64,000 nt of DNA from Atribacter laminatus (GTDB lineage Bacteria > Atribacterota > Atribacteria > Atribacterales > Atribacteraceae), in the NCBI RefSeq assembly GCF_015775515.1, contig NZ_CP065383.1, forward strand, positions 248,001 through 312,000, written 5' to 3'. The notes below the pieces were generated by a model, which worked only from the letters and a program-made list of their open reading frames with translations, had not been told where the DNA came from and made no database searches. Shown one piece after another: positions 27,812 through 33,724 of the stretch; positions within the stretch are counted from its first letter, which is position 1; each line of letters starts with the position of its first letter. Both the position numbers and the translations under genes were made by a program.

Positions 27812-28399
27812 TTAAGGATTTGCTGATAAATTTCGGCTTCCCCGTTTTTGGAGTTCGATATGTTCTTGACAGAGAGGACACTCATCAGGTGAATAGGTTT
27901 TAACTTCCATTTGCAATAGGGGCTGAAAGGGATATTTGAATTGAATCTTACCCCCACTTCGGTCAACCAGTATCCCCACTCCGATAATCTTGGCTCCAGT
28001 TTCTTCTATAACATCAATCACTTCTTGAGCTGAAGAACCAGTGGTAACCACATCTTCAACGACGAGAACTGAGTTATTCTGGTCCAAAACAAAATCCCGA
28101 CGAAATTTCATTTTCCCATTTTCTCTTTCGGTGAAAGCCATTCGTATCCCCAATTGTCGTGCAACTTCATAAGCAAGAATAATACCCCCAACCGCAGGGC
28201 CAACAACAACATCCGGTGTCGCTCCCGAAAAACGCTCGATAAGCTCTCCTGCTAATAATTCAACATATTTTGGTTGTTGAAGTAATTTGAATTTTTCTAT
28301 ATAAAAGGGACTGTGTAAGCCGGAGGTGAGAAGAAAATGTCCTTCCATAAAAGCTCCAGCCTCGCGAAATAACTGAAGGATTTCTTGCTCTCTCATCAC
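27812..28399 (-). CDS. pyrE: Orotate phosphoribosyltransferase
   Basis: 195 residues. VLVVEDVVTTGSSAQEVIDV is the PRPP-binding motif, and GAFMEGHFLLTSGLHSPFYIEKFKLLQ is the PyrE N-terminal signature. It converts orotate and PRPP to OMP. It ends the block pyrB-C-F-K-D-E and follows pyrD by 5 bp. The C-terminus has a short CPLCQEH tail with two cysteines, a feature of the thermophile/clostridial-type PyrE. Confidence 0.95.
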   Translation of the reverse strand: MMREQEILQLFREAGAFMEGHFLLTSGLHSPFYIEKFKLLQQPKYVELLAGELIERFSGATPDVVVGPAVGGIILAYEVARQLGIRMAFTERENGKMKFRRDFVLDQNNSVLVVEDVVTTGSSAQEVIDVIEETGAKIIGVGILVDRSGGKIQFKYPFQPLLQMEVKTYSPDECPLCQEHIELQKRGSRNLSANP

Positions 28400-28404
28400 A
28401 ATAC

Positions 28405-29310
28405 CTACCTCACTTTTCCAATTAAATCATTAATATCAAAGATATTTTTTTGGACCAAATAAGTTTTGATACCTTCAATGATTTGAACAGCAGCCGAAGG
28501 ATCAATGAGATTTACCGATCCCAACGCAACTGCCTGAGCCCCGATAAGGAAATATTCAAGGGCATCTTCCGTTTTCATTATACCACCCATTCCGATGATC
28601 GGAAGTCGGGTTCTTTGTATTACATCATAGACCAGTTTAAGAGCCAACGGCTTAATAGCCGGCCCGGATAACCCAGCGGTTTTTCTGGAAAAAATATAGC
28701 TCTGATTTTCAACATCAATTGCTAAAGCTGGAAAGGTATTGGTAACACTCAGTATATCTACGCCTTCCTTTTCCATAAATTGAAGAACGTTATTCAGGTC
28801 ATCGGTATTAGGTCCTAATTTAACGATAAGGGGTTTTTGGATTTTCTGCCGCAAATTCTGAATGAGTTGGCATAAAACTTGACCATTAGACGAAAAACTT
28901 TCTCCACCTTGTTCGATATTAGGACAAGAAACATTCACCTCAATAGCATCAATCCGCTCTAATCCGTTCATCTTTTTGGCAATATCCGAATATTCTTCAA
29001 TGGTTTTTCCCCAAATATTGGCAATAATCTTGGTTTGAAAATTCTCTAAAAAAGGCAAGTCTTCTCGAAAAAAGCGGTCAAATCCTTTGTTTTCTAAGCC
29101 TATTGAGTTCATTATTCCCGCATAAGTTTCGTGAATACGAGGTGGCGGATTCCCCACCCAGGGAGTTGAGCTCAATCCTTTAAGAGTGAAAGCTCCAACA
29201 CGATCAAGATCTAAATAAGGAGCAATTTCTCGACCATACCCGGCAGTTCCTGAAGCTAAGATGATCGGGTTGGATAGGGTTAAATTTCCCAAGTGGACTT
29301 GGAGATTCAT
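28405..29310 (-). CDS. pyrD: Dihydroorotate dehydrogenase, class 1B catalytic subunit
   Basis: 301 residues. NPIILASGTAGYGRE, NSIGLENKGFD, EVNVSCPNIEQGG (with catalytic Cys) and the FMN phosphate loop IGMGGIMKTEDALEYFLIGAQAVALGS identify class 1B PyrD. It oxidises dihydroorotate and passes electrons through PyrK to NAD+. Its ATG overlaps the pyrK stop (ATGA), as expected for a heterotetramer made in equal amounts. This type suits an anaerobe, since it does not need quinone. Confidence 0.96.
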   Translation of the reverse strand: MNLQVHLGNLTLSNPIILASGTAGYGREIAPYLDLDRVGAFTLKGLSSTPWVGNPPPRIHETYAGIMNSIGLENKGFDRFFREDLPFLENFQTKIIANIWGKTIEEYSDIAKKMNGLERIDAIEVNVSCPNIEQGGESFSSNGQVLCQLIQNLRQKIQKPLIVKLGPNTDDLNNVLQFMEKEGVDILSVTNTFPALAIDVENQSYIFSRKTAGLSGPAIKPLALKLVYDVIQRTRLPIIGMGGIMKTEDALEYFLIGAQAVALGSVNLIDPSAAVQIIEGIKTYLVQKNIFDINDLIGKVR

Positions 29311-30080
29311 AGTTCAATTTCTCCTAATCGAAATACTGGGCCATCTTTACAAACATGGAAATATCCAGGTAGGCCTTTCTTTTTCACTGCACAACTTAGG
29401 CAAACACCGTATCCGCATCCCATTCGTGATTCGAGTGATACTTCTATCTGATTGGGTATAATGTCATCCATTTTTGCTAAAGTCTGAAACATTCCCTGTG
29501 GTCCACATGCATAAATTTTTGGAGCAGATTTTGATAAAGAATGTTGCTGACGCCAATTCTCAAAAGCGTCCAAAACTGTTCCACAATAGAAACCAGAAAA
29601 TTCCTCCTGGCAACTTATTACTAAAGGAATTGGAAGTTGAGAGAGGTATTCAATAAGGACTTTTTCTTCTTGACTTCGAATGCCGAAGAAAAATTGAAAT
29701 GGAACTTTTTTGTTGATAAAAATTTGGGCTAAAAAATAAAGGGGAACGAATCCACGACCTCCACCAATTAATAAAGCTTCTTTGGGATTTAACGAAAATC
29801 CATTCCCCAGAGGTCCAAGCAGATCGACCTGATCTCCAATCTCGAGCTGTGACAAAATTTGCGTTCCTCGACCAACAATTTCAAAAAGCAAACCAAATTG
29901 GTTTTCTTGACAAGCTAAAATTCCCAAGGGTCTTTTTAAAAAAGGGTCATAAGATGATCCAGTGGTAACCATCACGAATTGTCCAGGACTGGCGAGATGA
30001 GCAATGTCCTTTTCTTCCAGCCACAATTCAACAAAGGATGTTCCAAGGAATCTTTTTTGAACAATTTTGGCTCTTTTCAT
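29307..30080 (-). CDS. pyrK: Dihydroorotate dehydrogenase electron-transfer subunit
   Basis: About 257 residues. FLKRPLGIL and GPLGNGF lie in the FAD domain, LIGGGRGFVPLYFLAQI in the NAD domain, and MGCGYGVCLSCAV...HVCKDGPVF gives the CX4CX2C...C ligands of the 2Fe-2S cluster. ATG 30080 overlaps the pyrF stop (ATGA); the longer frame begins at a TTG (30095). It transfers electrons from PyrD to NAD+. Confidence 0.95.
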   Translation of the reverse strand: MKRAKIVQKRFLGTSFVELWLEEKDIAHLASPGQFVMVTTGSSYDPFLKRPLGILACQENQFGLLFEIVGRGTQILSQLEIGDQVDLLGPLGNGFSLNPKEALLIGGGRGFVPLYFLAQIFINKKVPFQFFFGIRSQEEKVLIEYLSQLPIPLVISCQEEFSGFYCGTVLDAFENWRQQHSLSKSAPKIYACGPQGMFQTLAKMDDIIPNQIEVSLESRMGCGYGVCLSCAVKKKGLPGYFHVCKDGPVFRLGEIEL

Positions 30081-31000
30081 CGAAAAAGTTCCCAAAATCT
30101 TTCTTGATAGTAAATCGCTCGTTCTCGAGCCTTTTTTTCAAATCCCACTCCGGATTCGTTGTTCAAATCTTCACGGTAGGCAAAAATCACATCGCGAGAT
30201 ACGTTAACAATTGCACCTAAACCATCATCTCGAAAGGCATTAGCCAGGGATTTAATATAACCTTTTTGAGCTCCTACTCCAGGAATTAAAAACAAAAGTG
30301 AAGGAAAATTGGTACGAAGTAGTTTCAAGTCATCAGGATAAGTCGCCCCAACGACAATTCCAATCGAACTGAATCCTGATTCACCGATCATTTTTTCTCC
30401 CAAGGCTTCTACCATCTGAGCAACTTTAACATAGACTTTTTCTGGACCCGAAACGTCCTGTACAGTAGGTGCGCTTCGGTTTGATGTTCGACATAACACA
30501 AAAATACCCTTGTCGGTTTTGCCTGCTTCATCTATAAAGGGTCTTAAGCCATCTTCTCCTAAATAGGGATTTATCGTTAAAGCATCAACCTTCCAAAAAG
30601 ATTCTATTTGACCACCTGGAAAAGAAACCGATGAGAGATATCCCCGTGCGTACGCAAGAGCAGTACTACTGATATCATTACGCTTTCCATCTAAAATGAT
30701 GATATATCCCAAGTTCCGAGCATGTTCAATAGTTGATTTTAAGGCTGACATTCCTGGAATCCCCAACATCTCATAAAAAGCCATCTGAATTTTTATCATA
30801 CCCACTGTGTCTTGGAGCTCATCTAGTAATTTATTATTGGTTAGGGTAACCGCTTGAGCCAGGGCTTCCCAGGTTTTTCCTTTTTCTTTCAGTTCTTGCT
30901 CAAGGATAAACCGGGGAAGATATTCAATATGGGGATCTAATCCAAGTACTAAGGGACCAAACTTTTGAATGCAGAGGCTTATTCTATCAGCAAAGTTCAT
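30077..31000 (-). CDS. pyrF: Orotidine 5'-phosphate decarboxylase, subfamily 2
   Basis: About 307 residues. VLGLDPHIEYLP and IILDGKRNDISSTALAYARGYL (catalytic Asp/Lys set) define the longer 'subfamily 2' PyrF. It converts OMP to UMP. A GTG at 31048 overlapping the pyrC stop would add 16 residues. I prefer ATG 31000, because GGAG lies 11 nt upstream and the product then begins in the conserved MNFADRI. Confidence 0.94.
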   Translation of the reverse strand: MNFADRISLCIQKFGPLVLGLDPHIEYLPRFILEQELKEKGKTWEALAQAVTLTNNKLLDELQDTVGMIKIQMAFYEMLGIPGMSALKSTIEHARNLGYIIILDGKRNDISSTALAYARGYLSSVSFPGGQIESFWKVDALTINPYLGEDGLRPFIDEAGKTDKGIFVLCRTSNRSAPTVQDVSGPEKVYVKVAQMVEALGEKMIGESGFSSIGIVVGATYPDDLKLLRTNFPSLLFLIPGVGAQKGYIKSLANAFRDDGLGAIVNVSRDVIFAYREDLNNESGVGFEKKARERAIYYQERFWELFR

Positions 31001-31044
31001 ACCATTTGGTTCTCCTTTACCATACTTCTTCTTTATACTTCTTA

Positions 31045-32328
31045 TCACGAAGGTCTCATCATTATTTTACCATTTACTATCGTTGCCACCGGCCATCCTT
31101 TTAACTGCCATCCATCAAAAGGACAATTTCTTCCTTTTGAGACAAATTCATTTACCTTGACCTCATGATGGGTATCCGGATCAAGTATGGTTATATCAGC
31201 ATCCATGCCAGTTTCTAAACTACCTTTTTTTATTAATCCTAAAAATTGAGCCGGATTGAAGCTAAGCAGTTTCCAAAAATCAAGCCAGTTGATGATTCCA
31301 TCTTCAATCAACGCCTTCGCATAGAGTGGGACTGCAATTTCCAAGTTGGAAATACCAAATGCAGCTTCATTAAAATCACCTTCTTTGTCCTCATGGGTAT
31401 GCGGAGCATGATCTGATGCTAAAATTTTAATAACTCCTCGCTGAATTCCTTCTTTTAAAGCAACAATATCGGTTTGATCCCGAAGGGGTGGTTTTACTTT
31501 GGCTTGATTCCCATATTGGAGAATGCTTTGATCATCAAGAAGAAGGTGATGTGGAGTGACATCGGAACTCACCTTAACTCCTTGGCCTTGAAACCATTCA
31601 ATTAACTTGACACTCATTGCCGTTGATAAATGGGTAAAATGAACAAGTGCCTCAGTCGAATGGGCAAGGACTAAATCTCTGGCTATGATCGAGTCTTCGG
31701 CAACTTTTGGTAAAGACCGGTATCCCATTTTAAACGCCATTTTTCCCTCATTGACTTGACCCTCTCCAGCAATATCAGTATCTTCTTCGTGCAGAATAAT
31801 AGGCATATGAAAATATTTTGAATAGGTCATGAGCCGATAAAGCAACAGGCTGTCTTTGACGCATTTTCCATCGTCGCTTAATGCTATTGCTCCGGCATTC
31901 TTCAAAAGCCCTACGTCGGTCATGGCTTTTCCTTCTAGTCCCAGACTGATTGCGGCAGTCAGAAAAACATTGACCAAGCCAATTTCACGAGCTCGGCTGA
32001 GAAGATAGGAAATCACTAAGGGAGAATCGATAGGAGGACGTGTATTAGGCATACATAGTACTGAGGTAAATCCACCCTTAATCGCTGCTCGAGATCCAGA
32101 TAAAAGATCTTCTTTCTTTTCTTCCCCGGGTTCGCGAAAATGAACGTGAATATTAATAAAACCCGGACCTACTAAACATCCACTGGCATTTATCACTTCT
32201 GCCTTTCCGTCATTTATCCCCGGTTCAATTTGAACGATGACACCATCATCTATTAATACATCGGCTTCTATGGTCCGATCCTTTTGGGGAAGAATTACAG
32301 TTCCATTTTTTATCAAGAGCTTATTCAT
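31045..32328 (-). CDS. pyrC: Dihydroorotase (class I)
   Basis: 427 residues. HVHFREPGEEKKED carries the HxH metal pair, CMPNTRPPIDS, HEED and HFTHLS carry further metal or substrate residues, and ASDHAPH carries the catalytic Asp. The class I, long form is typical of Gram-positives and thermophiles. It cyclises carbamoyl-aspartate to dihydroorotate. It starts 4 bp after pyrB and overlaps pyrF coding if the GTG start of pyrF is used. Confidence 0.95.
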   Translation of the reverse strand: MNKLLIKNGTVILPQKDRTIEADVLIDDGVIVQIEPGINDGKAEVINASGCLVGPGFINIHVHFREPGEEKKEDLLSGSRAAIKGGFTSVLCMPNTRPPIDSPLVISYLLSRAREIGLVNVFLTAAISLGLEGKAMTDVGLLKNAGAIALSDDGKCVKDSLLLYRLMTYSKYFHMPIILHEEDTDIAGEGQVNEGKMAFKMGYRSLPKVAEDSIIARDLVLAHSTEALVHFTHLSTAMSVKLIEWFQGQGVKVSSDVTPHHLLLDDQSILQYGNQAKVKPPLRDQTDIVALKEGIQRGVIKILASDHAPHTHEDKEGDFNEAAFGISNLEIAVPLYAKALIEDGIINWLDFWKLLSFNPAQFLGLIKKGSLETGMDADITILDPDTHHEVKVNEFVSKGRNCPFDGWQLKGWPVATIVNGKIMMRPS

Positions 32329-32332
32329 CCGT

Positions 32333-33256
32333 TCATCCCCCCAAGATAAGAGTTTCTAAAACTGCCATGCGGATGGCTAATCCACAGCTAACCTGTTCTT
32401 CAATCAGAGAACTTTCCTTTTCAACCAGAGATGAATCAATTTCTAATCCCCGATTTACCGGACCAGGATGCATGATTTTTTTCCAACGACCATTATTAGT
32501 ATTTTTTAGATTTTCTTTCAGACCAAAGAAGTGTGAATATTCTTTTGTGCTAGGGAAAAATCCCGCTTCCTGACGTTCTTTCTGGATGCGAAGCAAGTAA
32601 ACTACATTAGCTTGTCGGATCGCCTCCTCAACCGGATAAATAACCTGACCCTCTAACACCTCGATGCCTTTTGGAATGAGGGTTGGTGGACCAGAAAAAA
32701 TGATCTGACTTCCTAATTTTTTGAGTCCTATGCTTAGCGAACGGGCAACCCGACTATGCAGAATGTCTCCAATAATGGCTACCGTATTTCGGGTAAAATC
32801 TATTCCATCTCTTTTCATAGTGAGTAAATCAAGAAGGGCTTGAGTAGGATGTTCCCTCATGCCATCACCGGCATTGATTATATGAAAGGGCAGAAATTGT
32901 GAAATATAGAGTGGAATCCCACTAGATCGATGGCGAATAACCAAAGCATCGGCTTTCATCCGTGCCAGAGTCCGCACAGTATCACGGAAGCTCTCACCCT
33001 TATTTAAACTGCTCAATTCATTGGTAAAGTTTACAACCTCCATCCCTAAAAGTTTTCCGGCCATTTCGAAAGATACCCGTGTTCGAGTGCTCGCTTCAAA
33101 AAACAGGTTGATAAGATAATAACCAGACAATCGAGTTAACTTTTTTGGTGATTGCTCTAACCAATTTCGGTATTGATTTCCTTTCTCAAGAAGGATTTTG
33201 ATTTCTTCACCACTTAATTGATCAATCCCTAATAAGTGTTTATGTTTCCATTCCAC
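32333..33256 (-). CDS. pyrB: Aspartate carbamoyltransferase catalytic subunit
   Basis: 307 residues. FFEASTRTRVSFEMA is the carbamoyl-phosphate loop (STRT), SFRDTVRTL and HPTQALLDLLT complete the active site, and MHPGPVNRGLEI is the C-terminal signature. It is the first gene of the pyr run. No pyrI is beside it, so the enzyme is probably unregulated by a PyrI-type subunit. carA/carB are also absent from the window. The 5' leader contains the promoter/leader-ORF/terminator set at 33595-33724. Confidence 0.96.
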   Translation of the reverse strand: MEWKHKHLLGIDQLSGEEIKILLEKGNQYRNWLEQSPKKLTRLSGYYLINLFFEASTRTRVSFEMAGKLLGMEVVNFTNELSSLNKGESFRDTVRTLARMKADALVIRHRSSGIPLYISQFLPFHIINAGDGMREHPTQALLDLLTMKRDGIDFTRNTVAIIGDILHSRVARSLSIGLKKLGSQIIFSGPPTLIPKGIEVLEGQVIYPVEEAIRQANVVYLLRIQKERQEAGFFPSTKEYSHFFGLKENLKNTNNGRWKKIMHPGPVNRGLEIDSSLVEKESSLIEEQVSCGLAIRMAVLETLILGG

Positions 33257-33594
33257 TCCCCATTGACCCCCTTCTTTCTTATCAAGATTTAAATGAGTGA
33301 CGAATGAGTGGTGAGCTTAAAAATAATCACTCTCATCCTCACCTTCTCCCATCAAGGGAGAAGGAAATCTGACTCATCATTACGAGGAACGGAGTGACTC
33401 GGCAATCTCATGAGCTCAATCTTTATTCATTCCTCTCTTTGGACAGAGGGAGATGGTTCGGGATCCGATTTTTCAATTTTTAAATCTCCCTTATTCCCCT
33501 TTTGCTAAAGGGGGAGATTGGCTCTTGAGTTTATTTTCATCCTCACCGTTTTAATAGCTCATTTAAAAAAGACTATGGACAATGATTTTTTGGC
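33257..33594. repeat. pyrB leader segment containing intergenic repeats
   Basis: 338 bp with no ORF. Bases 33330-33365 contain TCACCTTCTCCCATCAAGGGAGAAGG, bases 33375-33412 a TCATTACGAGGAACGG...GGCAATCTC unit, bases 33480-33520 an AATCTCCC...GCTAAAGGGGGAGATTGG hairpin, and bases 33532-33546 the start of a TTTTCATCCTCAC unit. These are the shared repeat families. They lie between the leader terminator and pyrB. Confidence 0.6.
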
Positions 33595-33637
33595 AAAAAA
33601 AAGTCCACCTTTCCTAAAACCAGGATAAGATGGACTT
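33595..33637 (-). terminator. Intrinsic terminator upstream of pyrB (attenuator candidate)
   Basis: Read on the minus strand, AAGTCCATCTTATCC pairs with GGAAAGGTGGACTT (one mismatch and one bulge), and the stem runs into eight T (A's at 33595-33602 on the plus strand). No minus-strand protein gene other than a 21-codon leader ORF precedes it. It should therefore end a short transcript from the promoter at 33696-33724, or act as an attenuator about 340 nt before pyrB. Confidence 0.8.
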
Positions 33638-33679
33638 CTCAAATCGATTTTCTTTTTCCGCTTTCTTCTTTTCTAACAT
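33614..33679 (-). CDS. Putative 21-codon leader peptide
   Basis: ATG 33679 opens a 21-codon frame ending at TAG 33614-33616, in the loop of the terminator hairpin. The peptide is very Lys/Glu-rich in its first half (MLEKKKAEKENR) and ends in SWF. A ribosome finishing it would sit on the hairpin and could block it. There is no strong Shine-Dalgarno, only GGGTTG. It could be a true attenuator peptide or a chance frame inside a small RNA. Confidence 0.35.
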   Translation of the reverse strand: MLEKKKAEKENRFEKSILSWF

Positions 33680-33695
33680 ACTACAACCCTGAATA

Positions 33696-33724
33696 AGGAT
33701 ACTCATTTCAATGTTTCATGTCAA
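33696..33724 (-). promoter_or_regulatory. Strong promoter for the pyr leader transcript
   Basis: On the minus strand, a consensus -35 TTGACA (33719-33724), a 17-bp spacer, and -10 TATCCT (33696-33701). The predicted start is near 33689, giving a leader of about 95 nt to the terminator. It is the best minus-strand promoter I can see upstream of pyrB. Confidence 0.65.

Follow-up and report, generated by a model that had tools for sequence, protein, structure and literature searches.

How is the pyr operon of Atribacter laminatus controlled? In the window (the whole 64,000-nt stretch of DNA that we analyzed, from a genome that is a single contig of 3,101,225 bases), six genes are consecutive on the minus strand: pyrB, encoding aspartate carbamoyltransferase (32333..33256; TIGR00670, 289.5 bits); pyrC, dihydroorotase (31045..32328; TIGR00857, 437.8 bits); pyrF, OMP decarboxylase (30077..31048; TIGR02127, 253.9 bits); a pyrK-like electron transfer subunit (29307..30095; NF000799, 147.8 bits, which is under the cut-off of 314); pyrD, dihydroorotate dehydrogenase (28405..29310; NF005574, 347.1 bits); and pyrE, orotate phosphoribosyltransferase (27812..28399; TIGR01367, 221.1 bits). 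Upstream of the operon, xylB is divergent. A sequence-only reading of this DNA had described a promoter, a short ORF, and a terminator on the minus strand ahead of pyrB.

These elements are indeed present. The -35 box (TTGACA, 33719..33724, minus strand) is followed by a 17-nt spacer and the -10 box (TATCCT, 33696..33701). After six more bases comes GGGTTGTAGT, with GGGTT at the predicted +1 to +5 (33685..33689), and then the ATG, at +11, of a leader ORF of 21 codons plus a stop (33614..33679). This ORF runs into an intrinsic terminator, which is predicted from folding and covariation (33600..33638). The terminator's T8 tract (33595..33602) overlaps the last paired bases of the hairpin. One detail of the earlier description needs correction: in the predicted fold, the right arm begins with the TAG stop (33614..33616), which borders the 4-base loop instead of lying inside it. 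The 95-nt leader RNA has a predicted folding energy of -22.9 kcal/mol, which is matched by 4 of 200 shuffled sequences (z = -2.48). A simple terminator scan did not list the window's hairpin, probably owing to its bulge.

Judging from the comparisons below, this feature is real and is conserved ahead of pyrBCFKDE. We are confident that it is an attenuator of the operon. We also propose, with a probability of roughly 0.6, that its sensor is stuttering on G's at the transcript start, which would read the level of UTP.

Conservation of the leader and its distance from pyrB

We searched for PyrB (E <= 1e-60) in 50 genomes of the phylum and found it in 22, all within one order (25 genomes). Upstream DNA was available for 20 of these 22 genomes, including A. 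laminatus itself, and all 20 have the TTGACA promoter and the terminator. (Two genomes, G008 and G015, were left out because a contig edge truncates pyrB, and two more, G005 and G023, because they have no PyrB at E 1e-60; a second copy of the leader in G014 was left out as identical to the first.) A 21st leader, from G011, has no PyrB at 1e-60 and was found with a promoter-plus-GGG pattern, so it is a biased addition, since the pattern contains GGG. The -35 box is present in 21 of 21 leaders, which were delimited by TTGACA. Similarly, that the leader always adjoins pyrB is partly built in, as the loci were sought by PyrB.

Is the leader part of the operon's control region, or is it a separate gene? 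In eight of the 20 genomes (G006, G010, G012, G013, G014, G016, G017, and G024), the hairpin ends just 25-37 nt upstream of the first aligned PyrB codon. Because of these short distances, the leader is most likely an attenuator and not a stand-alone small RNA. The sequence-only reading had offered two options: attenuation of the pyr operon, coupled to translation of the leader ORF, or a small RNA of 95 nt. Attenuation of the operon is favored by the conserved layout, and the small RNA is unsupported. A related alternative is that the pyr operon has its promoter elsewhere, and that the promoter and terminator seen here belong to a small-RNA gene or act as a constitutive partial terminator. The leader does end in a T8 terminator, and in the window species it is 343 nt from pyrB. 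But the short gaps in the eight relatives argue against this alternative, as does a consensus promoter scan, which found no further minus-strand promoter between the leader and pyrB in the window. We consider it very improbable.

Much of the 343 nt in the window species is a copy of a dispersed repeat of ~220 bp (33327..33545, minus strand). A BLAST search of the genome with this region gave 59 matches, including the window copy, and many of them cover positions 46-264 of the query. The distance from hairpin to pyrB is 277-740 nt in the window genus and is different in each of its five species.

We made two other observations about the junction with pyrB. In G012 (L027), G014 (L028), and G013 (L030), no stop interrupts the leader ORF over the ~164 nt that were read, so it extends beyond the start of pyrB, and translational coupling is possible. 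In G006 (L010), the frame of pyrB itself continues on the 5' side of its aligned start without a stop, across the terminator (an open frame of 328 aa).

The terminator is present in all 21 leaders, and its pairing is maintained. With the structure taken from one leader, 95.7% of cells are paired and two-sided changes are seen at 8 of 10 pairs; the covariation score is 0.512, versus 0.227 for shuffled alignments and at most 0.153 for slid ones, but the sequences are related and shuffles overstate the significance.

A conserved hairpin could be the binding site of a protein (PyrR or another one) that controls termination. Consistent with this, the left arm (CCATCTTTCCC) is similar across most genera, and there is a sub-threshold match to a PyrR site (17 bits, E = 9.9). 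However, that score for the PyrR binding loop (RF00515) is far under the gathering threshold of 54, and in the genus that we call g8, the sequence of the hairpin differs while the layout is the same. The loops vary as well. Also, PyrR was not found in the A. laminatus genome: none of its seven matches to PF00156 is PyrR. (Scans identify two hpt, apt, a comF-like gene, and pyrE; a prs-like and a purF-like gene were judged by length and score.) No Rfam family matches the window at its gathering threshold, in line with the sequence-only reading, which had seen no PyrR-type motif. Regulation by such a protein therefore seems improbable to us. (A permissive Rfam search gave 13 sub-threshold matches. 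The best was RUF4, on the other strand, with 28.6 bits, E = 0.0015, and a gathering threshold of 55, which we took to be due to chance.)

The predicted transcript start and the leader ORF

We then examined the bases around the predicted transcript start. In 20 of the 21 leaders, three or four G's followed by TT are found there. Seventeen leaders have GGG six bases past the -10 box, G001 and G004 have GGGG five bases past it, and G024 has GGGG six bases past it. The sole leader without a G-run start is that of G009, which has TGGTG at this place. If positions are numbered from six bases past the -10 box, then G is found at +2 and +3 in all 21 leaders, and 20 of them share the common base at each of +1, +4, and +5. 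From +6 on, the leader sequence is variable. G's at +1, then UU, then free variation would fit slippage that is controlled by the next nucleotide. (In the G009 leader, L008, the start codon is preceded by GGTGAT, and a run of six G's followed by T lies inside the leader, shortly ahead of the hairpin.)

Given these features, the leader could work as follows. RNA polymerase would start at the GGG and would require UTP at +4 and +5. If UTP is ample, the polymerase would proceed and the leader would end at the terminator, releasing an RNA of ~95 nt. If UTP is scarce, the polymerase would stutter and add extra G's, and the G-tailed RNA would escape termination. UTP would be the natural signal, since U comes next in the transcript and UMP is the product of the operon. 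The G tail could act by either of two routes, which are not mutually exclusive: it could capture the pyrimidine-rich left arm of the terminator, or it could provide a strong Shine-Dalgarno sequence for the leader ORF, so that a ribosome would run into the left arm. GGGTT would be both the stutter site and the seed of the Shine-Dalgarno sequence.

A different kind of start-site control is known from E. coli pyrC, where the start switches between C and G. We do not favor this type of switching here, as position -2 of the leaders is C, G, or T.

A caveat is that the promoter-plus-GGG pattern is not specific by itself. The A. laminatus genome has 166 promoter-like matches, versus 87 in the reversed control; with GGG added, there is one match (the window leader) and one reversed-control match. 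Across the 25 genomes of the order, the full pattern has 81 matches, versus 25 in the reversed control, and 22 of the 81 are the 20 leaders with a G-run (one was counted twice and one is the duplicate copy). Among the other matches, the sequences of 17 loci were inspected. In G012 (L139, G012:C2:64295), another promoter is followed by GGGTTT and then by a short inverted repeat, and the gene downstream looks by eye like one for a cold-shock protein. Similar promoter matches are present in G011, G014, and G015, which belong to the same genus. We also looked upstream of PyrB in other phyla: among the best 80 loci, none has the promoter followed by GGG and then T or C within 450 nt, but this says little, as the pattern is strict and some of these loci have scant upstream DNA.

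The place of the start codon is conserved as well. It lies at +10, +11, or +12 in all 21 leaders (ATG in 19 and GTG in two), which is 6-8 nt downstream of the GGG. In mononucleotide shuffles, the chance of this is 0.06-0.18 per leader; the product over ten genera is ~2e-9, provided that the genera are independent. In 18 of 21 leaders, the frame of the leader ORF has no stop before or within the left arm. Stops block frame 1 in 15 of the 21 and frame 2 in 8, and the figure for frame 1 is inflated by frequent ATGA. In the remaining three leaders (G006, G009, and G022), the ORF stops 7-16 nt ahead of the stem. So the leaders agree in where the ORF begins but not in how long it is or where it stops. 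We rejected the idea of a conserved leader peptide: the frame across the left arm varies between genera. Among seven pairs of leaders that we compared, only the closest pair (G000/G002) has no nonsynonymous change. Overall, the conservation that the sequence-only reading had proposed to check holds for the promoter, the start codon, and the terminator; it does not extend to the sequence of the ORF or its stop.

These results also bear on an alternative mechanism resembling that of E. coli pyrBI. There, the leader ORF would always be translated, low UTP would slow the polymerase in a U-rich stretch, and the ribosome would then draw level with it and block the terminator. The GGG would merely be a weak Shine-Dalgarno sequence. 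This alternative accounts for the conserved position of the start codon (21 of 21), for the ORF being open into the terminator (18 of 21), and for the use of GTG instead of ATG in two leaders. The codon differences between G011 and G014 (0 synonymous and 9 nonsynonymous) are also expected if only the act of translation counts, and in most genera, the left arm itself contains U's. On the other hand, the fraction of T from +6 to the stem is at most 0.27 in 18 of 21 leaders, so there is no U-rich pause tract there. (It is 0.20 in the window leader, which agrees with the earlier remark that this leader is unlike the U-rich one of E. coli, and above 0.3 in 3 of 21.) Furthermore, the left arms of G018 and G021, from genus g8, have no U, and the G-run and TT at +1, followed by variable sequence from +6, are left unexplained. 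We view this alternative as unlikely.

Two possible effects of a G tail

If stuttering adds G's, what would they do? We first consider pairing with the left arm of the terminator. Pyrimidine runs of at least 7 are found in the left arms of 15 of the 21 leaders, versus 13 of 140 control hairpins from the A. laminatus genome (464 kb) and 10 of 96 from its relatives (300 kb); using genus medians, p = 2e-5 against each control set, where the controls are hairpin-plus-T-run calls on both strands that are unproven as terminators, and the 140 include the window leader itself. The predicted duplex with G9UU averages -10.4 kcal/mol for the leaders, versus -5.4 for the controls from the same genome and -6.1 for those from relatives (p = 0.003 for genus medians against relatives' controls). 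However, complementarity to poly(G) ranges from strong in g8 through fair in most genera to weak in the window species. In g8, the left arms are wholly different, C/U-rich, and complementary to the G tail plus UU. The left arm in the window is a poor partner: its longest pyrimidine run is 4 and its duplex with G9UU has -6.7 kcal/mol, which is equalled or exceeded by 34% of the control hairpins from the same genome and by 40% of those from relatives. The longest run is likewise only 4 in G002 and G003.

We also predicted how added G's would affect folding. Adding two to four G's is enough to abolish the terminator at equilibrium in G018 and G021. In the other 19 leaders, the terminator persists at equilibrium even with 10 added G's, so capture by the G tail would need to be kinetic. 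In the nascent RNA of those 19 leaders, 6-10 added G's capture about 5-13 bases of the left arm. Adding A's instead had little effect (a control on three of the 21 leaders).

The second effect would be on translation. The 3' end of the 16S rRNA of A. laminatus is GAUCACCUCCUUU. Given the position of the start codon (+10 to +12 in all 21 leaders), our duplex predictions suggest that added G's would also strengthen the Shine-Dalgarno sequence of the leader ORF. For the window leader, the predicted duplex has -3.2 kcal/mol with GGG, -9.6 with two extra G's, and -4.9 with added A's. Without extra G's, it has -3.2 to -4.6 kcal/mol in 15 of the 21 leaders and -5.9 in G024. It reaches -6.5 to -7.8 in G001, G003, G004, and G020, partly from bases that are too close to the start codon. 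In G009, the encoded GGTGAT gives -8.8 kcal/mol without extra G's. With two extra G's, all 21 leaders have -9.6 kcal/mol or stronger.

This raises a variant of our proposal: at low UTP, the untemplated 5' G's would build the Shine-Dalgarno sequence of the leader ORF, and the ribosome, not RNA pairing, would remove the terminator. We consider this variant rather unlikely. Some observations speak against the G-stutter attenuator in general: the missing G-run start in G009, the strong duplexes that G001, G003, G004, and G020 have without extra G's, and the stops ahead of the stem in G006, G009, and G022. Moreover, if ribosomes translate the ORF even when no G's have been added, termination would be disrupted at all times.

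Relation to known leaders and significance

The closest parallel to the proposed G-stutter attenuator is pyrG of Bacillus subtilis. That transcript starts with GGGC and senses CTP, and its G tail pairs with an arm of the terminator. (The CTP-sensitive attenuator of B. subtilis pyrG, based on reiterative transcription, was reportedly described by Meng, Turnbough, and Switzer in 2004.) As in our leaders, a predicted or known run of G's precedes the pyrimidine to be sensed, the leader has a terminator, and the left arm is pyrimidine-rich, here in most of the relatives. Attenuation of the pyrG type is not known to need a regulatory protein, which is another likeness. Unlike in B. subtilis pyrG, the G's are followed by U instead of C, the operon is that of pyrB, the start of a leader ORF is conserved at +10 to +12, and the left-arm match is weak in the window species. 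The lineage is also probably outside of the Firmicutes. Two papers describe this system: pyrG is CTP-sensitive through reiterative attenuation (PMC4403831), and a shortage of pyrimidines leads to the addition of G's at the start of its transcript, so that attenuation is prevented (PMC4448216).

We looked for the same leader ahead of pyrG within the order and did not see it within 300 nt in 12 pyrG upstream regions (from 24 genomes with a match to pyrG; the L198 stretch lies inside a longer open frame). As a positive control, we examined nine pyrG upstream regions, drawn from ten genomes with Clostridia, Clostridiales, or Firmicutes in their titles (one region was just 22 nt), and found no GGGC after a -10-like hexamer. 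So the comparison to pyrG rests on published descriptions of that leader.

The attenuator of the pyrBI operon in E. coli and Salmonella also combines a terminator with a leader ORF that runs into it, and the operon has a run of U's at its start. The leaders described here are shorter. They share with pyrBI the pyrB operon, the leader ORF running into the terminator, and UTP as the likely signal, but they have a G-run instead of a U-run, and 18 of the 21 have no U-rich tract before the stem. According to PMC6245113, UTP-dependent reiterative transcription occurs at pyrBI, codBA, upp, and carAB of E. coli, and both the start sequence and the spacing between the -10 box and the start influence slippage at promoters of this species.

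In Streptococcus agalactiae thyA, the transcript starts at the Shine-Dalgarno sequence, with a 5' UTR of 12 nt, and the authors of PMC4448216 suggest that reiteration may modulate the initiation of translation. The predicted start of our leaders is similarly placed. In contrast, U is reiterated in thyA and no terminator is described in the passages on it, while in our leaders, the Shine-Dalgarno sequence would consist of the reiterated G's.

The sequence-only reading had supposed that the mechanism would be new. It had overlooked the G's followed by UU at +1, and hence the resemblance to a known mechanism. What would be new is a UTP-reading version of a switch that is known from another gene in Bacillus. 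In the open-access literature, the titles and opening lines of abstracts among the matches listed gave no description of this leader or of a UTP-sensing attenuator with a G-run.

If our proposal is correct, it would provide a means of pyrimidine control for a little-cultured lineage in whose genome PyrR was not found. It would also imply that the nucleotide read by a stutter-start switch can be changed from CTP to UTP, and that such a switch can precede a whole pathway. If the ribosome is what removes the terminator, then a nucleotide shortage would be converted into translation. The natural variants (two unrelated left arms, and one leader without a G-run) could separate pairing by the tail from the making of a ribosome site.
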